A DNA stretch of 64,000 bases from Verrucomicrobiota bacterium (GTDB taxonomy: Bacteria > Verrucomicrobiota > Verrucomicrobiia > Opitutales > Puniceicoccaceae), in the NCBI GenBank assembly GCA_038744685.1, contig JBCDMB010000017.1, positions 1 to 64,000 of the forward strand, in the 5' to 3' direction. The translations under genes and the position numbers were made by a program. The stretch's first letter is position 1; every line of letters begins with the position of its first letter. The notes below the pieces were generated by a model. The model worked only from the letters and a program-made list of their open reading frames with translations. It had not been told where the DNA came from and made no database searches. Positions 8,808 to 46,638 of the stretch are shown here, one piece after another.

Positions 8808-8857
8808 TGCTGTTTTGGTATAGACCTGGGACAGGCTTTTTTGGAAGGAAGATATAA

Positions 8858-8878
8858 CATCCGCCTTTGCGGCGGATG
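8858..8878. terminator. Short GC-rich hairpin between convergent genes
   Basis: A perfect 8-base stem (CATCCGCC / GGCGGATG) with a 5-base loop lies between the convergent methyltransferase and glycogen phosphorylase genes. There is no T-run on either side, so it may be a factor-independent stop with poor U-tract, or a single REP-like palindrome. Confidence 0.45.
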
Positions 8879-24559: not shown

Positions 24560-24649
24560 GGAGGAGTGCCAGAGTGGTCGAATGGGCCTGACTCGAAATC
24601 AGGTAAACCGGAAACGGTTTCGGGGGTTCGAATCCCTCCTCCTCCGCCA
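24560..24649 (+). tRNA. tRNA-Ser (anticodon CGA)
   Basis: The 90-base gene folds as a class II tRNA. The acceptor stem GGAGGAG pairs with CTCCTCC, the anticodon stem CCTGA/TCAGG holds loop CTCGAAA (anticodon CGA, codon UCG), the variable arm is long (about AAACCGGAAACGGTTT), and the T-loop is TTCGAAT. CCA is encoded. The long variable arm and the discriminator G fit serine. The integrase gene starts 158 bases downstream, so its 3' half is the probable attachment site. Confidence 0.95.
24615..24649. other. Predicted prophage attachment site (attL) in the tRNA-Ser 3' end
   Basis: Tyrosine integrases of this kind usually recombine at the 3' end of a tRNA gene and restore it. The T-arm and acceptor 3' strand here are the likely core. 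The matching copy (attR) must lie to the right of the window, so the exact limits cannot be read. Confidence 0.55.
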
Positions 24650-24807: not shown

Positions 24808-26058
24808 ATGATTAGGCATCCATCGGATTTTTCCCTGACACCACGCTCTGGTGCGACGAAAGGGAATCTTTTTCGATCCGGCGGTAAACGAAAAGATGTG
24901 ATTTACTGTCGTTTTTTTGTGACTCGCAATGGCCGGAAGAAAGAATTTAGGCGATCTACGGGGGAAACTACGGTGGTTGAGGCGCGAGCGAAGGCTTGGG
25001 CTTTTTGGCAAGAGGCGAGGGGTTTGACTGGGGGCAGTGAACGGGTGCCTCTCCAGCGGGCGACGAGTCCGAAGTTGGGTAAGATTGTCGATTTGTATGT
25101 GGAGCGACGCACGGATATTTCAGAAGCGTCTGAGCATACGGTAACGGATTACATTGGCTCGCTTCGACGGGCGGTGCAGTTGGTCGAGAAAGAAGATTGG
25201 CGGGATGTGAACCTGTCCCGGATTTCAGATGATTTTATGCTGCGCTGGTGGAAAGGCAGGTATGCGGCGCGGGGGCTTGTTTACGGGGATCCCGAAGATG
25301 TGGATGAGTCGTTGAATGCTTCCCTGAACAGCGAGACGCAGAATATGCGGGCGATCTTTGGACGGCATGCGTTGCAGGTATACAAGGATGAGGGAATGGT
25401 GATCCCGGATTCGTTACAGCGGTTTTTGACGATGCGGAAGCTACCGGCCGAAGAAGATGGATTTGAGCCGATCCCCTCTGAAGATGACTTGAAAATCCAA
25501 GTGCTTTGTCAGGCATCCATTCATCGTGCTCGGGGTATTGAGTACAGGGTGCCGGTGGATTGGGCGGAGGAGGTGCCACCGGCAGAGATCGCCGTGGCCT
25601 GTGAGATGGCTCGTTTTGCGGCTCTCACCCGGAAAGAGATTTATGCGGCGCGGGTGGACTGGTTTGCTGAGGACCTCCGATCAATCGATGTGCGGTCTCG
25701 GGTGGATGAAAAGTTTCGAACGAAGCGGGGAAAAAAGAACGGGATTGTGCCTTTAAATCCAAACCGGGTGCGTTGGTGGTTTGAGGCGTTGGGTTCGCAA
25801 GAGTTTGTTTTGCCTGGCGAAGAACACCCGCGCTGGATTACTTGTCGCACGAAAGTGGGTCTATGGCTTGCACCCTTCCTATCTGGCCGCAGAATGAGGT
25901 TGCATGAGCTGCGTAAGATGGCCGGTTGGGACGTGTGGAAGGCGAGTGGTAGCCTTTCGGCTGCAGCGGCTTTCTTGCGGGATCGAGAAGAGACGGCGCG
26001 AAAGTACTACCTACCTAAAAAGCACAATGCGGCGCAGTTCGGGGTAGAAGGGTTGTAA
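24808..26058 (+). CDS. int: Tyrosine recombinase (prophage integrase)
   Basis: The 416-residue protein would insert and, with a helper, excise the phage DNA at the tRNA-Ser site. The catalytic domain shows R275 in A-L-T-R-K-E-I, a probable beta-hairpin lysine near 310-312, the H-x-x-R motif H366/R369 (R-L-H-E-L-R-K), and the tyrosine at 400 or 401 (T-A-R-K-Y-Y-L). A core-binding domain lies at about 88-205, and an arm-type DNA-binding N-terminus precedes it. The start ATG follows a strong Shine-Dalgarno AAGGAGG. It faces a short leftward gene, with a terminator between them. Confidence 0.9.
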   Translation: MIRHPSDFSLTPRSGATKGNLFRSGGKRKDVIYCRFFVTRNGRKKEFRRSTGETTVVEARAKAWAFWQEARGLTGGSERVPLQRATSPKLGKIVDLYVERRTDISEASEHTVTDYIGSLRRAVQLVEKEDWRDVNLSRISDDFMLRWWKGRYAARGLVYGDPEDVDESLNASLNSETQNMRAIFGRHALQVYKDEGMVIPDSLQRFLTMRKLPAEEDGFEPIPSEDDLKIQVLCQASIHRARGIEYRVPVDWAEEVPPAEIAVACEMARFAALTRKEIYAARVDWFAEDLRSIDVRSRVDEKFRTKRGKKNGIVPLNPNRVRWWFEALGSQEFVLPGEEHPRWITCRTKVGLWLAPFLSGRRMRLHELRKMAGWDVWKASGSLSAAAAFLRDREETARKYYLPKKHNAAQFGVEGL

Positions 26059-28289: not shown

Positions 28290-29099
28290 ATGGCACTAGA
28301 AGAACAGCAAGCGATGATGACTCTGGACGATTCCAGTGGTCTGCCGCTTGAGGTCATAGAGCGGCACGAGAGCCAAGAGTCTTCTCGATACACAGCGGGA
28401 CGCCTGGAAACCGAACGGCCGCAAGTTTACCGGGCGGTAGTGGCATTGCTTCGAGCTGGCTACTCACCCGAAGAGACTGCGCAAGAATTGGGGATGCATT
28501 TCTACACCGTTAATGCGGTATCGATCAAACTCCCGGAAGTTGTCGCAGTCGGTAAAAAGACAACGGCGCGTTTGGCCCATGCAACTGGCCGAAGGGCGTT
28601 GGAAAAGATCCACGATTTCGTTGAGTCCCATTCGGTCAAAACTTGGAACGACGCGAAGAGCGCGGCGATGGTTGCGGGCATCACGATTGACAAAGGTCAG
28701 GTGTTGGACGGGGAACCCACCGAGATCCAAGGGCATACAAGCCCCAACTTGCTACAGGTTGGCGAGATGTTTAGAGAGCTGGCTGCGAGTGCAGGTAAAC
28801 CCGTTTTGACAGAGAAAAACGGGGAGCAAAAGAGCGGTTCGTTGACGGCTGGATTGGCGGTTGGGCCTGGGTTTGTCGCGGCGGCTGTGCGGTCGGAGAT
28901 GGCATCCGAAGCGGATAAGGAAGCGGATAAGGTTTTGCAAAGCGTTGATAATCAAAAGTCAAATTACGATAAACACTTGATTGATAAGCAGGGAGAAGCG
29001 GAAGTGACGGGTGGTGATGATGCCCCGGCTGTAGTTTCCGCCGAAGGGGGGCGGGGGGGGTCGGCCGATTCATCTGCGCCCCATTCTATCGATGGGTAG
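28290..29099 (+). CDS. HTH-domain phage protein (possible small-terminase-like)
   Basis: A 269-residue protein. Residues ~45-80 read V-A-L-L-R-A-G-Y-S-P-E-E-T-A-Q-E-L-G-M-H, a homeodomain-like HTH. Residues ~110-150 hold A-A-M-V-A-G-I-T-I-D-K-G-Q-V-L-D-G-E-P-T. The latter resembles the 'A.iA..I.tDK...L.GepT' segment I associate with phage HTH/terminase-small-like proteins. The C-terminal 70 residues are low-complexity and acidic. It is nearly 8.5 kb upstream of the large terminase, so an early regulatory role is equally possible. Only 10 bases separate it from the previous gene. Confidence 0.5.
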   Translation: MALEEQQAMMTLDDSSGLPLEVIERHESQESSRYTAGRLETERPQVYRAVVALLRAGYSPEETAQELGMHFYTVNAVSIKLPEVVAVGKKTTARLAHATGRRALEKIHDFVESHSVKTWNDAKSAAMVAGITIDKGQVLDGEPTEIQGHTSPNLLQVGEMFRELAASAGKPVLTEKNGEQKSGSLTAGLAVGPGFVAAAVRSEMASEADKEADKVLQSVDNQKSNYDKHLIDKQGEAEVTGGDDAPAVVSAEGGRGGSADSSAPHSIDG

Positions 29100-32853: not shown

Positions 32854-32939
32854 CCACGGATTACACGGATGAGCACGGATTTGGAACGGGATGAAGAGGC
32901 GAACGTCGAACTTTTAACGTCCAACGCTGAACTTTGAAA
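32851..32939. repeat. Repeat array: type A followed by heptamer type C
   Basis: Type A (TAACCACGGATTACACGGAT..., 32851-32884) begins with the stop codon of the membrane protein gene. Type C follows (about 32895-32939): GAACGTC GAACTTT TAACGTC CAACGCT GAACTTT, imperfect 7-base units. It ends AATGGGATTATGG at the start of the helicase gene. Confidence 0.8.
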
Positions 32940-34707: not shown

Positions 34708-34947
34708 ATGAGGACGGAGGATTGTGTTCGGTTTTCTCCTGAGGAGTTGGAGCGGCGGATGGATGCGGTGCGGTTATCCTGGATTGGCCACAAGTGCTCG
34801 TTTGCGCGCGGGGAACGGACGCTTAAGGGGACGATTGTGAAGATAAAGGATATATGGGAAATGGATCACGCAAAGACGCAGAGACGCGGGGGAAAGGAAA
34901 GATGGCGAACTTTGAACATCGAACGTCGAACTTTGAATTTTAAGTGA
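34708..34947 (+). CDS. Truncated paralogue of the next gene, with a repeat-encoded tail
   Basis: The first ~48 residues (F-S-P-E-E-L-E-R-R-M-D-A-V, then W-I-G-H-K-C-S-F-A-R-G) align with residues ~6-50 of the downstream gene (F-A-E-P-E-L-T-Q-R-M-E-A-A, then W-V-G-H-S-C-T-F-V-R-E). The remaining ~27 residues (H-A-K-T-Q-R-R-G-G ... L-N-I-E-R-R-T-L-N-F-K) are the translation of type E and type C repeats. A tandem duplication was evidently cut short by a repeat array. The protein may be non-functional. Confidence 0.55.
   Translation: MRTEDCVRFSPEELERRMDAVRLSWIGHKCSFARGERTLKGTIVKIKDIWEMDHAKTQRRGGKERWRTLNIERRTLNFK
34864..34942. repeat. Repeat array: type E followed by heptamer type C
   Basis: Type E (34864-34891): TCACGCAAAGACGCAGAGAC then GCGGGG, ACGCAAAG-like 8-base words. 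Type C (34901-34942): GATGGC then GAACTTT GAACATC GAACGTC GAACTTT. The array lies inside the open frame of a truncated gene. Confidence 0.78.
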
Positions 34948-37134: not shown

Positions 37135-37554
37135 TTGCAAAGATATCGACAGAGGAAGAGGGAGGCGTTGCGTGCCCAGTGTTCGCGGATGGGGAAACGG
37201 TCGCAGGAAGTTCAGGCTAAGAAGAGGATGGCTGGGCCTACGCCTGACTATCCGCCGATGCTGGGTGAGTTGCTGATGGTGGAGCGTGTCACTAGGCCTG
37301 ACTTTGCCTCGGTGGAGTATGTGATTCGGCAGGGGGATCGGGCCAACCGGATTGCGGTTTCGGTGTTTGGTCGAGTGGTGCCTGGGCTTAGGACTTGGAG
37401 CGCGTTTTATGCGGCGCGTAGGCGGGGGATCATCGGCTTGACCCAGCCTTCGCACAAGGCTTCGGCGGGTAAACCTGCCGATGCTCCGGGGGGTGAGATG
37501 GAATTTGAAATTTTGGATTTGAGATTTGAGATTGCAACCGGAGGTTGCGGATGA
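37135..37554 (+). CDS. Basic phage protein upstream of terminase, with a repeat-encoded tail
   Basis: The 139-residue protein is very basic at its N-terminus (R-Q-R-K-R-E-A-L-R-A). The conserved-looking middle is V-E-Y-V-I-R-Q-G-D-R-A-N-R-I-A-V. The last ~38 residues (S-H-K-A-S-A-G-K-P-A-D-A-P-G-G-E, then F-E-I-L-D-L-R-F-E-I) are translated from repeat sequences. The start is a TTG at 37135 two bases after the previous stop; ATG 37189 is the alternative. A DNA-binding role near packaging, as for a small terminase, is conceivable but unsupported. Confidence 0.45.
   Translation: MQRYRQRKREALRAQCSRMGKRSQEVQAKKRMAGPTPDYPPMLGELLMVERVTRPDFASVEYVIRQGDRANRIAVSVFGRVVPGLRTWSAFYAARRRGIIGLTQPSHKASAGKPADAPGGEMEFEILDLRFEIATGGCG
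37441..37551. repeat. Repeat array: type B variant plus ATTTGAGAT type (G)
   Basis: Bases 37442-37475 (CCAGCCTTCGCACAAGGCTT, CGGCGGGTAAACC) match the variant at 47821-47855. Bases 37500-37536 repeat GATTTGAGATTTGAGATT words, as after icd. The hairpin GCAACC-GGA-GGTTGC follows and supplies the GGAGG Shine-Dalgarno of the terminase gene. Confidence 0.65.
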
Positions 37555-38702
37555 CGCAGACTTTGATTGAGAAGCCTTTGATGCCGGAGCATCCGGTGTT
37601 GCCGTTTAATCAGGAGATGGCGGCGGGGATTTTGGCGCAGCATGGAGAGAAGAAGCTGGCGGAGTATGTGGCGCAGCGGAATGCGGCGATCCATGCGGAG
37701 TTGACCGATCCGCTGAACTACGGATTTGAGCTGCCGACTTGGTTGCTGGCGGATGTGCTGGCGGGGTTTATCGATAAGGCGACGTTTCGCCGGAAGATTG
37801 CGGAGATACGGGCTTTGGCTTGGCGGCCGGAGGTTTACGATGGGCTGGGGCGTTGGCTCGAGTCGGAAAGTTTGGAGAGGGCGATTGATGAGGGGCCTTA
37901 CCAGTTGGTGATGGTGGTTGGAGGGAATGCGGGAGGAAAGACGGAGTGGATGTTGAAGCGGGTGGTGCAGCACGCAGACAAGTTTGAGGAGTATGAGGGG
38001 TGGGTGCTGCATGAGACGAACCCAATGAGTATTACCTATCACCAGACGCGGACTTGGAAATACCTGCCGGAGAACTGGAGAACCACGGGCAAGGGGCAGG
38101 TGGGGTATGTGAGTTATAAAAAGCAAACGGGGTTTCCTGATGGGAAAGCTACGGGGCCAAAAGGGGGGCTAATTTGGCACCGCAACTATGAGCAGAAAGA
38201 GGATTCGTTTGAGGGGGGAGAGCTGGGCGATAAGCTGGAGCGAAGGGCTATCGGTTTTGCAGCGGATGAGTTGATTCCGTTGCCTTTGTTGAAGACTCTG
38301 CGCTTACGCTTGAATCGGAGACAGGCTGCGGGGGTGCTGGGATTTACTCCTAAGCATGGCTATTCGGATGTGGTGGCTTGGTTTCGCGATGGGGCTACGG
38401 TGGTGTTGGAAGAGATGGCGATTGAGTTGCGGGAGCCGAGAATGCTTCCGTTGGTTGAGATTGGCGCACCGGAGGGAGAACCGGCAAAGCCGCGTAAGGC
38501 TGTGGTTTATTTTCCTACGATATACAATCCCTACCCTACCCGGAACAGTTACCAAAATCTGGTGGATTTGTTGTCGGGTGACTCGGATGCGACGCGGGCG
38601 ATCCGTATACGGGGGTATGCGAAGAAGCAGGAAATGAACCTTTTTCCGCGGTTGGATGAGAGGGTGCATGTGTTTGAATCGGTGATAGGAGAGAATGTTT
38701 AA
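37551..38702 (+). CDS. Terminase large subunit, ATPase part
   Basis: The terminase motor pumps phage DNA into the prohead. This 383-residue piece has Walker A G-G-N-A-G-G-K-T (124-131) and a Walker B-like A-I-G-F-A-A-D-E-L-I, then an adenine/coupling region. It ends G-Y-A-K-K-Q-E-M-N-L-F-P-R-L shortly before the stop, the point where other large terminases continue into the nuclease domain. ATG 37551 has GGAGG at the proper distance. The stop TAA is the first part of a type A repeat. The nuclease half follows as a separate gene 204 bases on, so the protein is split. Confidence 0.85.
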   Translation: MTQTLIEKPLMPEHPVLPFNQEMAAGILAQHGEKKLAEYVAQRNAAIHAELTDPLNYGFELPTWLLADVLAGFIDKATFRRKIAEIRALAWRPEVYDGLGRWLESESLERAIDEGPYQLVMVVGGNAGGKTEWMLKRVVQHADKFEEYEGWVLHETNPMSITYHQTRTWKYLPENWRTTGKGQVGYVSYKKQTGFPDGKATGPKGGLIWHRNYEQKEDSFEGGELGDKLERRAIGFAADELIPLPLLKTLRLRLNRRQAAGVLGFTPKHGYSDVVAWFRDGATVVLEEMAIELREPRMLPLVEIGAPEGEPAKPRKAVVYFPTIYNPYPTRNSYQNLVDLLSGDSDATRAIRIRGYAKKQEMNLFPRLDERVHVFESVIGENV

Positions 38703-38899
38703 CCACGGATTACACGGATGGACGCGGATTTTGGAGATGGCGGTTTTGCATGGATGGGGATGGATGAACGCGGATTGGGGAAGAATGAAGAGATGGCGAA
38801 CGTTGAACTTTAAACGTCGAACGTCGAACGTCGAACGTTAATGGATTCTTTCGGATGGTGATTACGATTATGATTAGGATTAGGATTAGGATTAGGAGG
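38700..38899. repeat. Repeat array between the two terminase halves (types A, C and D)
   Basis: Type A at 38700-38733 (starting with the TAA stop) and a degraded copy near 38742-38782. Heptamer type C at 38792-38842 (GATGGC GAACGTT GAACTTT AAACGTC GAACGTC GAACGTC GAACGTT). Hexamer type D at 38860-38899 (GATTAC GATTAT, then four GATTAG) ends in GGAGGGAG and provides the Shine-Dalgarno of the downstream gene. No coding capacity is apparent in 38703-38906. Confidence 0.85.
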
Positions 38900-38906
38900 G
38901 AGAGGG

Positions 38907-39755
38907 GTGTTTAGGTTGCCGGAGGTGGGGACTAATTATCAGTATGTGGATCCGTGTGGGCGGGGTCGGAATTGGTTTATGCTTTGGTGTCGGGTGGATG
39001 CGGAGGAGCGGCGGTGGGTTTACCGCGAGTGGCCTTGTGCGCGGATCCCGGTGCCGGGGATTGGGTTTCCTGGGGCGTGGGCGGAGACGGGGTCGAGCAA
39101 AACGCACAAGTTTGGCGGGGTGCCGGGGCCGGGGCAGAAGGGGTTTGGTCTGACGCTGGGAGAATACAAAAACGAGATTGCCCGGCTTGAGGGTTGGGAG
39201 GATGTGCGCAGTGGAAAGCCGGTGGAGGATTGGCGCGAGAGCAACGGAACGCGCGAGCGGATCTACCAGAGGAAGATCGATTCGCGGCCGGTGGCGATCC
39301 GCAACTATAAGGCGTATTCCGAAAATACTACTCTACTTGAGGAGATGGCCGATATTGGGTTGTTTTTTGAACAGGCGAGCGGGAAGGGGGTCGATGAGGG
39401 GCTGGACTTGATCAATGATGGGCTGGGCTGGAAGGATGAGTTTTTGACGGAGGAGGATCCGCTGCGGGCGGTGCAGTTGGGGCCGAAGTTGTTCATTTGC
39501 GAGGACTGCCAGAATCTGCTGTTTGCGCTTAAGGTGTATACGAGTATGGGCGGCGACAAGGAGGCGACGAAAGATCCGATCGATACGCTGCGGTATCTGC
39601 TGATGGATGATCCGTGCTATGTGCCGAATGATGGACGGCAAGGGGGATACAGTGGACGGGGCTATGGGATGCGCGCGGGCGCAGGTGGCGGGATGCGGCG
39701 AGCGGATGAGGCAGGGCCGTCGAAGGCCAGTCGAATGGGAAAGTTTAACCACTGA
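38907..39755 (+). CDS. Terminase large subunit, nuclease part
   Basis: The 282-residue protein starts with V-D-P-C-G-R-G-R-N-W-F-M-L-W (D15), the first strand of the RNase H-like terminase nuclease. It contains the acidic V-D-E-G-L-D-L-I-N-D region and D-P-I-D-T-L-R-Y-L-L-M near 240, matching the C-terminal domain of large terminases that cuts concatemeric DNA. GTG 38907 sits 7 bases after AGGAGG from the type D repeat. The last residues F-N-H and the stop come from the next type A repeat. Either the two halves work together in trans or packaging is lost. Confidence 0.78.
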   Translation: MFRLPEVGTNYQYVDPCGRGRNWFMLWCRVDAEERRWVYREWPCARIPVPGIGFPGAWAETGSSKTHKFGGVPGPGQKGFGLTLGEYKNEIARLEGWEDVRSGKPVEDWRESNGTRERIYQRKIDSRPVAIRNYKAYSENTTLLEEMADIGLFFEQASGKGVDEGLDLINDGLGWKDEFLTEEDPLRAVQLGPKLFICEDCQNLLFALKVYTSMGGDKEATKDPIDTLRYLLMDDPCYVPNDGRQGGYSGRGYGMRAGAGGGMRRADEAGPSKASRMGKFNH

Positions 39756-39927
39756 TGGACACAGATGAACACTGATGGGGAGATGGGAAATGGGTCACGC
39801 AGAGACGCAGAGACGCGGGAGATGGGGAGAGATGGCGAACTTTGAACGTTGAACGTTGAACGTTTAACTTTGAACGTTAAGTGACTCGGAATTTTTAACC
39901 ACGAAGGACATGAAGAACACAAAGAAT
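39743..39927. repeat. Repeat array: types A, E, C and A variant
   Basis: Type A 39743-39780 (TTTAACCACTGATGGACACA), type E 39794-39819 (CACGCAGAGACGCAGAGACG), heptamer type C 39831-39881 (GAACTTT GAACGTT GAACGTT GAACGTT TAACTTT GAACGTT). A variant A (TTAACCACGAAGGACATGAA...) lies at 39894-39927. Confidence 0.8.
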
Positions 39928-39941
39928 AGGAGTGAAGCGAT

Positions 39942-40154
39942 ATGAGTGAAATTCGTAGTAAACCGAAGTTGCCTGCGCCTTATTATGTGCGGTGGGGGGT
40001 GATGGTGAATTGGCTGGAGGAGTGGGGGATTTCGGTGGATGAGGTGCGGAAGATGGTCGAAGCGGAGACGATCAAAAAGCATTTTGTAGGGGAGTGTAAG
40101 CAGGCGAAGTATGTGCCCGAAGAGATCGAGCGGGAGTTGGGGTTGGGGAGGTAG
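39942..40154 (+). CDS. Small phage protein, function unknown
   Basis: A 70-residue protein: L-P-A-P-Y-Y-V-R-W-G-V-M-V-N-W-L-E-E-W-G, followed by a helix (V-R-K-M-V-E-A-E-T-I) and a Glu-rich end. It might be a winged-helix-like or head-associated protein. It lies between terminase and portal, isolated by repeat arrays on both sides. The TAG stop overlaps a type B repeat. Confidence 0.5.
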   Translation: MSEIRSKPKLPAPYYVRWGVMVNWLEEWGISVDEVRKMVEAETIKKHFVGECKQAKYVPEEIERELGLGR

Positions 40155-40326
40155 AACCTGCTTCGCATAAAGCTACGCAGGTCAAGAGTGGGAACCCGCT
40201 TCGCCAAGGCTACGCAGGTCAAGAGTTTGAAGGATGAAGAGATGGCAAGAATCACGCAGAGACGCCAAGACGCGGAGATGGCTGTTTTGCATGGATGGAC
40301 ATGGATAAATGCAGATAACAATGAGG
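40154..40326. repeat. Repeat array: two type B copies, type E and a degraded type A
   Basis: Type B copies at 40154-40188 (starting in the stop codon) and 40192-40225 (GAACCCGCTTCGCCAAGGCT...). Type E at 40249-40280. A GCATGGATGGACATGGAT string at about 40283-40326 also follows the type A copies at 38745 and 43918. Confidence 0.78.
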
Positions 40327-40364
40327 ATAGGTGCGGAAACAACACAGAGAGGTAACGAATAGCT

Positions 40365-40607
40365 ATGAGCAAAGAAAACACTAATGATACCGAGACAACG
40401 GAGCGCGAGCGGAGTTGTCCTACTCCGACTTGTTCTGTGCCCGTGAGACTTCTTGAAAACCTTTTAGATAACACTCGCCAACTCCGTGCTGAAAATCACT
40501 GGTGGAAAAATGAGCCGCGAATGGACTATCGAGCCAAATACGCGCAACTGTGTGCCGAAATCAAAATAGGCGAAGAAATTCTTTCACAGAACAAGTTGAT
40601 CGAGTAG
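40365..40607 (+). CDS. Small accessory protein with a 'SQNKLI' tail
   Basis: An 80-residue protein with a disordered N-terminus (E-N-T-N-D-T-E-T-T-E-R-E-R), a coiled-coil-like middle (L-L-E-N-L-L-D-N-T-R-Q-L-R-A-E) and the end I-L-S-Q-N-K-L-I-E. The 3' end and first bases after the stop (TAGCTTTTCAAACTTC) match those of the gene at 43973-44272. No function is recognised. Confidence 0.55.
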   Translation: MSKENTNDTETTERERSCPTPTCSVPVRLLENLLDNTRQLRAENHWWKNEPRMDYRAKYAQLCAEIKIGEEILSQNKLIE

Positions 40608-40630
40608 CTTTTCAAACTTCACCCTTCAAA

Positions 40631-40727
40631 CTCTTGACCGGCGTAGCTTTATGCGAAGCGGGTTCAAACTTCTCTCCCTGATCGGGGTGAAACTGTGTGG
40701 TTTCGTGTGGTTTCGTGTGGTTTGTGC
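40631..40727. repeat. Inverted type B copy and decamer type F before the portal gene
   Basis: Type B in reverse orientation at 40631-40665. Type F at 40677-40727: CCTGATCGGGGTGAAACTGT then three GTGTGGTTTC-like 10-base units. An almost identical type F copy precedes the scaffold-like gene (44316-44366). The rest of the 246-base gap to the portal gene is G/T-rich with no clear promoter hexamers. Confidence 0.75.
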
Positions 40728-40853
40728 GGCTGAGGGGTTGCTTTGGGTGGGAGTCTTTGGGATGGGGAGGCTTTGTTTTGCACCCGGTAGAGGGTTTGTC
40801 GCATGAAAGAGTAACTACACAGCGCACGGAAAACCCATGGGTAAGGGAAGGTT

Positions 40854-43061
40854 ATGAGTATCGGACATTCGGAGATTGATGTGCTCCAAAAGGGCAGGGT
40901 GCTGGGGGGTGCGTTGATTGATGAGTTGGAGCAGGCGATCCAGCATGCGGATGGTTGGGCGGATAATTGCCGGTTGGCTGAGGAGACGGCGTGGTGTATC
41001 TGGCCGGGGCAGTCGGATGATGGGCTGAAGCATGCGTTTCCGGGGGATGAGGAGCCGCCTTTCCCTTGGGAGAACAGCAGTGACACGCGGATACGGTTGG
41101 CAGCCGAGAAGGTGCGCGAGTGCGTAAAGGTGGCCCTTGCGGTGAAGCGGCGCGGGATGGTGAGCATCCAGGGTACGGAGGGGTTTGACTTTCAAAGGGC
41201 GCGACAGGCGCAGTTGCTTTTGGATTGGCAGATGAGGACGCAGATCCCCAATGCGGCGAGGGAGTGCAATCTGTGGGTAAACTGGGCGTGGCTGTATGGT
41301 TGGTCGATCATGGGGCTGGGCTGGACACGGGCGGAGGCCCGGTGCAGGCGGCGGGTGAGCCGTGAGGATGTGCTGGCACTTTTGCTGGTGCGCACTGGGG
41401 CGGAAATAGAGAATGTCGAGGAAAGGCGGGTAGCCGAGGAGGAGATGGCCCAGGCGTTTCAAACGGCGGTGCTTGAGGATACGGGAGATGGTTGGCTGGA
41501 GGAGTGGTTGATGACGCTTTTTCCGGGTATCACGCAGAAGAAGATGGCGCGCAAGTATGCGAAGGCATTGCGGGAGAGGGGCGAGGCGCATGTGCCGGAG
41601 CTGCGGACGGTGGCAGACCACCCGGAGTGGCGGGCTTACCGTCCGTTTGAGCATGTATTTCTCCCGGCCGAGGCCGACCATACGGGCACGGCGCGGTGGA
41701 TGGGCACACGGGAGTGGCTGTCGCGGAGTGAGGTAGAGGCGCGGGCGGCGGAGAAGGACTGGGACGCAAGTTTTGTCGAGGAGTTGTGGAACCATGCGGG
41801 GGCGGCGTCCACCTACTCGTTGGACAATTACTCGGCCAGTGCGGCTTATGGGCGGACGCGGTGGAATGGGCACAGGCGGAGTGCGTTTGCCTATGAGTAT
41901 GATCGCAAGGGGTTGTATGAGGTGATGACGTTTCGCCACCGTGCGGTGGACGACGAGGGGGTGACGGGAATATACGAGACGGTGCTTTCGCCGCATGTGA
42001 AGGGGTCGATGGCGGCAGAGGATGAGTATCTGGTGGCTTCGCAGGAGTTGATCGACGAGGGCACGGCGATGCTGCCGGGGATCGACTACACGATTTGGGA
42101 TGAGGAGCGGCCGCTGGTCGAGAGTGAGGGCTTGCCGCTGTGGATCCACACTTACCAGCAAGAGAAGAAGAATTTGCGCGATAACGAGCAGAACTATGCG
42201 GCGATTTCAATCATGCCTCCGGTGCGGCGGCATGTGCGGGATATGAATATCCCGCTGATTATCGGGCCGGATATGCCGCTCTACGAGAGCCAGGCGGGGA
42301 GCACGGAATGGATGAAGCCCCCGCAAAATCTGACGGCGGTAAGCCAGAAGCTGCAACGCGACATTGAGCGCGAGGCCAACCGGTTTACGGGGCAGCCGGA
42401 TGCGGAGGTGCCGGATATGATCGTGCAGCTCAATCAGGAACATTTGACGGACCAGTTTGGGACGCCGTATGCAGAATTGTTGCGGAGAACGTTACAGCTC
42501 GACCAGTTGTATTTGCCCGAGACTACGGTGACGAGGGTGACGGCGGCCGAGGGGGAGCCGTTTCGGATCAGCCGGGAGGAGATTCAGGGGCAGTTTGATG
42601 TGGCGGTGGCGTTTGATCCTGCGGTGCTGGACCCGGATAAGGCGCAAAAGAAGTTTGAGGCAGTCAGACAGATTGCTACGTCACTGGACCGCAACCAGAT
42701 CACCGATAGCAATGCGCTGGTGAAGCTGGGCTATCAGATGATCGATCCGGCGTGGGCGAATCTGTTGGTGCGCAGCGATGAGCAGGGGAGTGAGATGGAG
42801 CTGCGCGAGACTAAGGATGCGATTGGCGATATTGTGAGCGGGCAGGAGCCAACGTTTACCGACCGGATGAATGCGACGATGCGGTTGCAGTATTTGAACG
42901 GGCAGTTGCAAAGCAATCCAGTGCTGCGGGGGATCGCGGTGGATGAGGGCGACCCGCGCAATGAGATGCTGATGAAGTATCGGGACCATCTGGAGTTTGT
43001 GTATGGGCAGCAGCAAATACGGCCGCAGGAAGGGAGAGTTGGGGTGTCGTTGGAAGGGTGA
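40854..43061 (+). CDS. Portal protein
   Basis: The 735-residue protein is the expected size of a podovirus-type portal, the dodecameric ring through which DNA enters and leaves the capsid. It is rich in helices, with W-A-W-L-Y-G-W-S-I-M-G-L-G-W in the clip-like region. A long loop and C-terminal helical part follow (residues ~500-735), with conserved-looking F-D-P-A-V-L-D-P-D-K-A-Q-K. The start has AGGGAAGG before ATG 40854. Position between terminase and scaffold supports the call. Its TGA stop overlaps a type B repeat. Confidence 0.82.
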   Translation: MSIGHSEIDVLQKGRVLGGALIDELEQAIQHADGWADNCRLAEETAWCIWPGQSDDGLKHAFPGDEEPPFPWENSSDTRIRLAAEKVRECVKVALAVKRRGMVSIQGTEGFDFQRARQAQLLLDWQMRTQIPNAARECNLWVNWAWLYGWSIMGLGWTRAEARCRRRVSREDVLALLLVRTGAEIENVEERRVAEEEMAQAFQTAVLEDTGDGWLEEWLMTLFPGITQKKMARKYAKALRERGEAHVPELRTVADHPEWRAYRPFEHVFLPAEADHTGTARWMGTREWLSRSEVEARAAEKDWDASFVEELWNHAGAASTYSLDNYSASAAYGRTRWNGHRRSAFAYEYDRKGLYEVMTFRHRAVDDEGVTGIYETVLSPHVKGSMAAEDEYLVASQELIDEGTAMLPGIDYTIWDEERPLVESEGLPLWIHTYQQEKKNLRDNEQNYAAISIMPPVRRHVRDMNIPLIIGPDMPLYESQAGSTEWMKPPQNLTAVSQKLQRDIEREANRFTGQPDAEVPDMIVQLNQEHLTDQFGTPYAELLRRTLQLDQLYLPETTVTRVTAAEGEPFRISREEIQGQFDVAVAFDPAVLDPDKAQKKFEAVRQIATSLDRNQITDSNALVKLGYQMIDPAWANLLVRSDEQGSEMELRETKDAIGDIVSGQEPTFTDRMNATMRLQYLNGQLQSNPVLRGIAVDEGDPRNEMLMKYRDHLEFVYGQQQIRPQEGRVGVSLEG

Positions 43062-43693: not shown

Positions 43694-43957
43694 AACCTGC
43701 TTCGCATGAAGCTCCGCAGGTCAAAAGTTTGAACCCGCTTCGCCAAGGCTACGCAGGTCAAGAGGGTGAGGGGGGGAAGTTTGAAACGGGAAGAGATGGC
43801 GAACGTTTAACGTTCAACGTCGAACTTCCAACTTTAAGTTTGAAGGGAGAAGTGAAAGATCAGGGCGCGGAAATTCAGGGAATCACGCAAAGACGCTAAG
43901 ACGCGGAGAAGGCGGGGTTGCATGGATGGACAAAGATGAACGCAGATAACAATCAGT
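43693..43957. repeat. Repeat array: two type B copies, types C and E and a degraded type A
   Basis: Type B 43693-43727 (starting in the stop codon) and 43731-43764; type C 43795-43846; type E 43880-43909 (ATCACGCAAAGACGCTAAGA); degraded type A 43918-43957. The order B-B-(C)-E-A matches the array at 40154-40326, and each precedes an 'NKL'-tailed small gene. Confidence 0.8.
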
Positions 43958-43972
43958 AAAGCGATCACTGTA

Positions 43973-44272
43973 ATGAGCACTAGGAACGACGAAAGCATAC
44001 CAGATCACCGAGGCACTTACGGATTTAAGCCCGGCCAGCAAACCAGTGGTTCCTCTTTACCCAATGGTTCTTACCTTATCGAAAAACTAGATACCCGCAG
44101 AGAGTTTGTTACAGAGGTTGATGGATATGTATACTGGTGGCCTAACGTCTCGCATAATGGTCACTTTGCGTCTCACCACCTTCGGTGGATCGCTGACGAG
44201 TTAGACCGTAGGAATGAGAAATGGCAAACGTTCATAGATGATCATTTTTCTAAGAGCAAGTTGGTCGACTAG
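43973..44272 (+). CDS. Small accessory protein with a 'SKSKLV' tail
   Basis: A 99-residue protein with a possible beta domain (R-E-F-V-T-E-V-D-G-Y-V-Y-W-W) and a C-terminal helix ending F-S-K-S-K-L-V-D. The tail and the DNA after the stop (TAGCTTTTCAAACTTC) match the gene at 40365-40607. Its composition is A/T-richer than the structural genes around it. Function unknown. Confidence 0.55.
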   Translation: MSTRNDESIPDHRGTYGFKPGQQTSGSSLPNGSYLIEKLDTRREFVTEVDGYVYWWPNVSHNGHFASHHLRWIADELDRRNEKWQTFIDDHFSKSKLVD

Positions 44273-44315
44273 CTTTTCAAACTTCCCCCCCTTCTAACTT
44301 CCAACTTCTTCCCCT

Positions 44316-44366
44316 CCTGATCGGGGTGTAACTGTGTGGTTTCGTGTGGTTTCGTGTGGTTTGTGC
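44316..44366. repeat. Decamer type F repeat before the scaffold-like gene
   Basis: CCTGATCGGGGTGTAACTGT plus three GTGTGGTTTC-like units, 50 of 51 bases like the copy at 40677-40727. It lies 67 bases before the scaffold-like gene. Confidence 0.78.
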
Positions 44367-44433
44367 AGGCGGGGTATTGCTAAGGGTGTTTTCGCTGTGA
44401 TTGGTGGGGCTTACCTACTTGGAGGGTTAAGCC

Positions 44434-45597: not shown

Positions 45598-46638
45598 ATG
45601 CCAAGACCGGCACAAAATGTAACGACAGGGGTGCATCCCAACTATCTTAATCGATTGATTGAGGTGGATGCGGAGGAGACGCCAGCCTTTTCACTGTTGC
45701 CGAAGGGAGACCCTTTAAGCAACCCAATCGCCCAATACCCGATTGACGACAGAGACACGGCCAGCAAGGAGGGTGTGCTGGACAATACGCCGACCGAAGG
45801 CGCAACCGAGGAAGACAACTACCGGATTCTGGAGTCGCCCAACCACATGCTGGACGAGTTGATCAGCGTGGGGAAGAAAGCCAACACGTTTGTAGACCAA
45901 GCCGGAATCGGCAAGGGCAAGCAATACCTCCGCGTGCTGACGAAGAAGCAGAAGGCGATCAAAACGGCCTTCGACCAAATCACTTGTGACGATGCCGAGG
46001 CGCGGTTGGAAGGCGTGGGTGGCAAAGGCTCTGAGACACGCGGGATGTTCCGCTGGTGCCAGTCGACTGCGCAGGCAGTCAAGCCGGTGGACCCGCTCTA
46101 CCGCACACCTGCCGGGCAGATCAGCACGGTGAATCACGATGAGTTCTACGAGGAAACTTTCCAAGGTCTTCTGAATGAGCATCACGATGCCACCGGACGG
46201 GAAGGAAAGTTTACGGCAATCGCCGGGATTTTCTGGAAGCAGAAGGTAAGCAACTGGACTGTGCTGGACAGTGGCGATCCTAACTTCTCCTACATCCGTC
46301 GGTTTAGCAGTGACGCAAGCCAAGAGCGCAAGGTGCTGAATGCCGTTGTGAACGTGCTCGTCTGCGATGGCGGCCGCGTCGAAGTGCACAAGAGCCGCAA
46401 CCTGTTGTGGGAACGCTCCCCGTCTTCACGCCGCGAGATTAGCCCCGGAAAATACACGGGTGCTTTCTCGATGATCGGATGGCACGAAGGTTGCGCGGAG
46501 TATCGCTTCGGCTGGGAGCCGAGCCACGAGCCGCTTGCCAAGCGCGGGGGTGGCGAAGACGGGCACATTGATATGTGTGCGGCCCTTTGCTGCGATCCTA
46601 CAGGCATGATCAAGCATGTGCCTGCCGCACTCACCTAA
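45598..46638 (+). CDS. Probable major capsid protein (SU10/DUF5309-like)
   Basis: A 346-residue protein after the scaffold-like gene. It shows A-G-I-G-K-G-K-Q-Y-L-R-V-L-T-K-K-Q-K-A-I, then F-D-Q-I-T-C-D-D-A-E-A-R, resembling the long-helix segment of SU10-type HK97-fold capsid proteins, and continues with N-A-V-V-N-V-L-V-C-D-G-G-R-V-E-V ('V..vv.dfG...v'). Size and position fit a major capsid protein; the family assignment is from memory. AGGAG precedes the start. A strong hairpin follows at 46682-46736. Confidence 0.7.
   Translation: MPRPAQNVTTGVHPNYLNRLIEVDAEETPAFSLLPKGDPLSNPIAQYPIDDRDTASKEGVLDNTPTEGATEEDNYRILESPNHMLDELISVGKKANTFVDQAGIGKGKQYLRVLTKKQKAIKTAFDQITCDDAEARLEGVGGKGSETRGMFRWCQSTAQAVKPVDPLYRTPAGQISTVNHDEFYEETFQGLLNEHHDATGREGKFTAIAGIFWKQKVSNWTVLDSGDPNFSYIRRFSSDASQERKVLNAVVNVLVCDGGRVEVHKSRNLLWERSPSSRREISPGKYTGAFSMIGWHEGCAEYRFGWEPSHEPLAKRGGGEDGHIDMCAALCCDPTGMIKHVPAALT

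Follow-up and report, generated by a model that had tools for sequence, protein, structure and literature searches.

Introduction

In current models of the phage DNA packaging motor, ATP hydrolysis is coupled to DNA movement via the hinge that joins the two domains of the large terminase (TerL). An essential phage enzyme encoded in pieces is known from phage Aeh1, where the ribonucleotide reductase gene nrdA is reportedly split by the homing endonuclease gene mobE (Friedrich 2007, cited in PMC3322345), a genes-in-pieces arrangement. Known interruptions of phage terL genes are introns or inteins, with cases in Campylobacter phage IBB_35 (PMC3322345), ICP1 (PMC10448857), and SIOphi (PMC11878797). 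For the T4 enzyme, it is reported that cutting gp17 at the linker leaves both the ATPase and the nuclease active but abolishes DNA translocation altogether (PMC3012670, citing Kanamaru 2004). This article concerns a terL locus on contig JBCDMB010000017.1 of a Verrucomicrobiota bacterium (assembly GCA_038744685.1), in which the ATPase and nuclease halves of one TerL lie on two open reading frames (ORFs) of a prophage, separated by a spacer built almost entirely of repeats. The whole stretch of 64,000 nucleotides that was analysed is referred to as the window; coordinates are those of its forward (+) strand, on which the terminase halves, their spacers, attL, and the integrase-like, 70-amino-acid, portal, and capsid genes lie.

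The two halves of one large terminase

The ATPase half occupies positions 37551-38702 (383 amino acids) and aligns over nearly its full length with the N-terminal part of unsplit TerLs, and the nuclease half (282 amino acids) occupies 38907-39755 and starts with GTG; the end at 38702 and the start at 38907 given in a preliminary description of this DNA proved exact. The two ORFs share one frame and lie 204 bp apart, and with the TAA at 38700 included the interval has four in-frame stops, so that read-through of both ORFs is not credible and was discarded as an explanation. The two domains that define a TerL when carried on one polypeptide are here encoded by two ORFs.

The window halves by themselves matched no terminase model in Pfam or PHROGs, and the ATPase half as sole query gave no direct match in viral contigs or solved structures; the TerL identity was therefore obtained through relatives. 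Among unsplit relatives there are matches to phrog_2 ‘terminase large subunit’ (4.9e-15) and Pfam Terminase_6N (PF03237; 2e-9), and the predicted model of one of them, L066 (predicted local distance difference test, pLDDT, 72), retrieves from the PDB, at a probability of 1.00, the terminases of Sf6 (gp2), D6E, T4 (gp17), and HK97. For the nuclease half taken singly, the prediction is an RNase H-like domain (pLDDT 75), whose highest-probability match is the G20c TerL nuclease 5m1f (0.91, at a weak E-value of 0.036). By alignment, Walker A of the ATPase half (GGNAGGKT, residues 124-131) corresponds to GGNRAGKT of the homologues and Walker B (FAADE, with D239/E240 at nt 38265-38270) to IWCDE, which bears out both motifs as previously proposed. 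The acidic residues D15, D125, D223, and D226 of the nuclease half are invariant across 22 sequences, and the window halves retain 52 of the 55 positions that are invariant among 19 unsplit homologues. Homology to known TerLs, the Walker motifs, and an RNase H-like domain with acidic active-site residues together confirm 37551-38702 as the ATPase half and 38907-39755 as the nuclease half of a single TerL; the concern that one of them might not be a terminase domain was answered by the library matches of the unsplit relatives and by the fold matches, which place both among terminase domains.

An unsplit ancestral gene

That large terminases are normally one polypeptide, as the preliminary description had assumed, holds for about 110 complete homologues, each a single unsplit ORF. 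In 16 IMG/VR loci, not counting another two that a contig end truncates, the halves correspond to the two ends of one ORF of 539-630 amino acids, and they align likewise to the unsplit 562-amino-acid frame of phage C75C1. Wider scans contributed 72 more intact IMG/VR homologues and no split one (8 run off the contig), and about 20 unsplit loci were found in Opitutales and wider Verrucomicrobiota genomes. The sole exception among the complete close homologues, all others being one ORF, is G594, which is described below. The unsplit copy that had been sought in related prophages is present within the same order, Opitutales, in G164 (CALXQW010000020.1, ‘uncultured Opitutales bacterium’; 650 amino acids; 43% and 50% identity to the ATPase and nuclease halves, the former being that to L066/G164), G023 (665 amino acids; 32% and 55%, respectively), and G145 (655 amino acids).

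Alignment to an intact terminase, proposed earlier as a check, gives a clean junction with no residues missing: on L066 the ATPase half reaches residue 380 and the nuclease half starts at 384, and the linker portions of the two halves sum to 25 residues, compared with 17-29 in 29 relatives. In the predicted L066 model the inter-domain linker comprises residues 359-388, between a helix (350-358) and a strand (389-395), and the split position maps to this linker. In the trees of both halves the window groups with G164 and G023 in a single clade (ultrafast bootstrap, UFBoot, 100 and 98), where its branch does not exceed the range of its unsplit sisters’ lengths and is not clearly accelerated; because both halves group in the same clade, a domain swap with another phage via the repeats was ruled out. 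The collinear pieces together span the whole ancestral protein, as in other genes-in-pieces, and the alignment, the linker length, the trees, and the retained invariant positions therefore indicate that one gene was split and nothing was lost. On the evidence of the homologues, which show the ancestral terL to have been one unsplit gene, gene fission of this TerL is almost certain. Candidate target-site duplications were also considered, namely GTGTTT (38670/38907, in frame), TGTTTA, and TAGGAG, but several other 6-7-mers are common to the flanks and none of the candidates is therefore significant.

The repeat spacer

The spacer (38703-38906, 204 bp) has the third-position GC of non-coding DNA and contains no splice element. 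A type A repeat (38698-38729) with the copy TTTAACCACGGATTACACGGAT includes the TAA at 38700-38702 that ends the ATPase half. It is followed by an A-related module GCATGGATGGGGATGGATGAACGCGGAT at 38733-38775, which recurs in the spacers at 40155 and 43694 with 81-86% identity over 43 nt, by an array of type C heptamers (GAACGTT/GAACGTC) at 38785-38840, and by an array of type D hexamers (GATTAG) at 38858-38899. The type D array ends in AGGAGG (38894-38899), the Shine-Dalgarno sequence of the nuclease half, 7 nt before the GTG at 38907; its duplex energy of -10.7 ranks second among 37 prophage genes and is equalled at 1.6% of random positions. The assignment of the stop codon to a type A copy and of the AGGAGG to a type D copy was thus correct. 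The same description had called the spacer wholly type A, C, and D, which is right insofar as 199 of the 207 nt of spacer plus stop recur in the remaining spacers of this prophage (in a control with 60 coding stretches of equal length, the mean was 0.5 nt and the maximum 14), and overstated insofar as the module at about 38733-38775 and a short link at 38841-38857 are not canonical members of any of the three types.

The repeats number 54 matches genome-wide, about 17 of them in this 40-kb prophage, where all lie on the + strand, and none is present in the related prophage regions. In G164 and G023 the genes for TerL, a 70-amino-acid protein, and the portal overlap or abut, and the window has spacers in their place: one of 186 bp (39756-39941), where the corresponding two genes overlap in both relatives, and a second of about 700 bp after the 70-amino-acid gene, with a small ORF inside. 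Since the relatives’ junctions are repeat-free and overlapping or abutting, the insertion in the terminase is one among many of this kind, the one that landed in a gene. The nuclease half likewise has its stop codon inside a type A repeat. Of the two readings that had been suggested for the arrangement, a repeat insertion yielding two working pieces or a lesion that stops packaging, both involve the repeats; their insertion into one ancestral gene is well supported by the unsplit relatives, the clean junction, the single lineage of both halves, and the absence of the repeats from relatives; its consequence for packaging is weighed below.

Further occurrences of the repeats were recorded. At 32854, 38703, 39756, and 47755, type A repeats begin where the preceding gene has its stop codon, and in three of these four sites the TAA of TAACCACGG is the stop codon itself. 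A small ORF at 34708-34947 has its final residues, KTQRRGGKERWRTLNIERRTLNFK, encoded by spacer repeats. The regions 40155-40853 and 43694-44433 are similar cassettes, each with two hairpin-like repeats (AACCTGCTTCGC..GCTACGCAGGTCAAGAG) and B and A-like repeats, continuing with a small ORF that ends in KLIE/KLVD, after which come CTTTTCAAACTTC and three units of GTGTGGTTTC; they are perhaps a mobile ‘moron’ unit. Arrays of types C and D on the chromosome of the host (contigs L043, L044, L048, L052, and L054) tend to form intergenic inverted pairs. Type A repeats also stand at gene junctions of unrelated viral contigs (L076 at 2494-2522, L077 at 8846-8874, L078, and L079), those of L076 as an inverted pair immediately 5' of a start codon. 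The type C plus flank pattern had no match among viral contigs, and none of the repeat sequences was found in the literature.

Split terminases in other lineages

Nuclease homologues were sought in about 1,100 genomes, comprising order, class, and phylum samples, and two further TerL splits were found in Verrucomicrobiota genomes, G594 and G277, both without the repeats of the window. In G594 (L097, 3061-5510, reverse strand) an ATPase ORF, a 130-amino-acid ORF, and a nuclease ORF lie in different frames, and the break corresponds to a variable loop inside the ATPase domain. The spacer in L097 carries two copies of CC(A/C)AGGGTTGGAAAA, a repeat unlike those of the window. In G277 (L098) a glycosyltransferase-like ORF stands between an ATPase ORF (phrog_5989, 1e-5) and one for the nuclease (phrog_2, 1.5e-5). 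TerL of this type, from a lineage distant from that of the window, is a two-gene protein in each of the six viral records that were found (L181-L186), of which L181 is the viral-database copy of G277, L184 and L185 are one phage, and L186 shows the ATPase gene only in part. In L182, L183, and L184/L185 the ATPase and the nuclease remain on separate genes at 48-66% identity; the two ORFs overlap directly in L184, so that the gene of L184/L185 could be a frameshift gene, different genes intervene in L182 and L183, and in L186 the end of the ATPase gene lies 3.8 kb upstream. What lies between the two genes differs among the records: no gene at all, small ORFs, one peptidase-like gene, one glycosyltransferase, or genes spanning about 3.8 kb.

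That two genes have been kept in at least four phages diverged to 48-66% identity implies that a two-piece TerL works in the G277 lineage. G277/L098 with L181-L186 and G594/L097 resemble the window in encoding TerL in two pieces; they differ in that their breaks lie in the ATPase domain with mostly other genes between, whereas the window is broken at the linker with repeats between. Since the breaks lie inside the ATPase domain, these splits are a precedent and no proof for the window. They do mean that a split TerL is not unique to the window’s repeat array, being found without these repeats in G594 and the G277 lineage. The circumstance that had been named as telling against an insertion, a separation into two genes in many phages that lack repeats, is encountered in weak form: none of about 89 complete close-family viral homologues is split, but two Verrucomicrobiota genomes, G594 and G277, carry split copies. 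In L071, a Pontiellaceae TerL frame of 771 amino acids has about 150 extra residues between its ATPase and nuclease matches. Annotation lists for actinobacteriophages are understood to allow the separate names ‘terminase, large subunit, ATPase domain’ and ‘nuclease domain’. No published two-gene TerL was found in the open-access literature.

The prophage

The prophage extends over 40.3 kb from attL, a 29-bp sequence at 24621-24649 that is the 3' end of a tRNA-Ser gene (24560-24649), to attR, an identical copy just past the window at positions 64955-64983 of the contig. An integrase-like protein (24808-26058) was recognized from its position beside attL and its sequence, and the prophage regions of G164 and G023 contain ORFs homologous to it at 30% identity. 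Downstream of the terminase lie the 70-amino-acid protein (39942-40154), found between TerL and portal also in relatives, an intact 735-amino-acid portal protein (40854-43061), assigned by position and size, of which residues 20-732 align with the G164 counterpart (36.8%), and a major capsid protein of SU10 type (45598-46638; Pfam SU10_MCP, 1e-11). The att repeats, the integrase-like gene, and the portal and capsid proteins homologous to those of relatives mark a complete prophage, of which inducibility is a prediction. Reading frames are open for the integrase-like protein, the replication genes, the portal, the SU10-type capsid protein, and a 1320-amino-acid gene near the right end, and no other broken conserved gene was seen in the 40 kb. 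A 269-amino-acid helix-turn-helix-like protein at 28290-29099, 8.5 kb upstream of TerL, has a homologue that directly abuts TerL in G164 and is a candidate for a small terminase that has moved away.

A working two-piece motor or a lesion

The explanation favoured here is a fission by spacer repeats that left a functional motor. In this account a temperate phage of an Opitutales host, with a capsid protein of SU10 type, had a single terL, which received a 204-bp mosaic of the prophage’s own junction repeats in its inter-domain linker, the repeats bringing a stop for the ATPase half and, at their far end, a Shine-Dalgarno sequence before the nuclease GTG. One gene thus became two adjacent cistrons. 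Each would be translated separately, and the two polypeptides would come together at the portal and act there in trans to package DNA, their own domain interface taking the place of the peptide linker. Taken as a whole, function included, this account is slightly more probable than not. That the split motor functions is in itself somewhat likelier than that it does not, and the wider proposition that a natural packaging motor runs on unlinked ATPase and nuclease/translocation polypeptides, made by repeats carrying a stop and a ribosome-binding site, may equally well be right or wrong. The linker position, the translation signals, the intact prophage, and the two-gene lineage favour function. 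Several points weigh against it. T4 gp17 split at the linker fails in DNA translocation, as PMC3012670 reports; TerL splits are very rare; the precedent lineage is broken inside the ATPase domain and not at the window’s linker; and the genome is a draft assembly. The split is common to no close relative, so that purifying selection since the split is not measurable and the conservation of the halves may merely mean that the split is recent.

The weightiest alternative, a tentative but serious one, is that the insertion put packaging out of action and left the prophage as a relic, grounded not long ago and undamaged in other respects. Besides the T4 result, it draws on the homologues, nearly all of which are unsplit, so that splitting of TerL must be strongly disfavoured. 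A helper TerL elsewhere in the genome was looked for and not seen: no second TerL of the same family appears as a rescue, nor does any Terminase_6N match, although the latter says little because the window TerL itself misses that model. A lesion sits less easily with an insertion in the sole linker, which at about 30 of 650 residues would be struck by chance about 5% of the time; this matches survival of function, but a single 5% event is weak evidence. Nor would a lesion lead one to expect a second piece with a start codon and one of the prophage’s best Shine-Dalgarno sites, a 40-kb prophage in which no other lesion was seen, or split TerLs that persist in other lineages.

Rejoining of the cistrons at the RNA or protein level, by intron splicing, a trans-splicing intein, or translational bypass, would agree with the known terL interruptions, all introns or inteins (PMC3322345, PMC10448857, PMC11878797), and with a spacer length divisible by three, but it is very improbable: no Rfam intron was found in the spacer at either threshold, the spacer folds less than its shuffles (z = +2.2), and its 204 bp are nearly all dispersed repeat with no recognisable intron, intein, or homing endonuclease at the split, in addition to the in-frame stops. 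All three kinds of element were rejected on these grounds. It is just as hard to credit an assembly artefact in which repeats from another place served to join the two halves. Assemblies typically break at dispersed repeats and the draft comprises 56 contigs, but the complete prophage with both att sites lies in collinear order on one contig, both halves belong to one lineage, and the spacer resembles the same prophage’s other spacers.

Comparison with known systems

Whether the split motor works is a real and testable question, because the prophage looks intact while the split T4 motor cannot package. A natural split at the place where T4 gp17 was cut provides a ready test of the need for a covalent link, and if the motor works, then together with the two-gene lineage it would show the covalent linker needed in T4 to be dispensable in some phages. 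The locus also presents intergenic repeats that entered a coding sequence whose ancestral state is known, defined by the unsplit homologues, unlike ordinary junctions, and illustrates how repeats carrying stop and Shine-Dalgarno sequences can convert a single gene into a two-gene operon. With regard to the two-gene lineage L181-L186, packaging-gene annotation and terL-based phage surveys may miss or miscount such phages.

The TerLs of Sf6 (gp2), D6E, HK97, and T4 (gp17), of Terminase_6N/phrog_2 type, have the ATPase and RNase H-like nuclease domains and motif residues in common with the window TerL and, like it, a gene position beside the portal gene, but each is one ORF where the window has two. 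In IBB_35, ICP1, and SIOphi the terL coding sequence is interrupted as in the window, and the product is spliced to one chain, whereas the window has no splice element and its second ORF has its own start. Aeh1 nrdA, as reported, is alike in that an insertion divides the gene of an essential phage enzyme into two collinear ORFs and no part is lost; its insert is the homing endonuclease mobE, while that of the window is 204 bp of non-coding intergenic repeats, with retained function only predicted. The T4 gp17 construct (PMC3012670) and the window TerL are both separated at the ATPase-nuclease linker, the former being a laboratory construct that lost translocation and the latter a natural split that may still be active.
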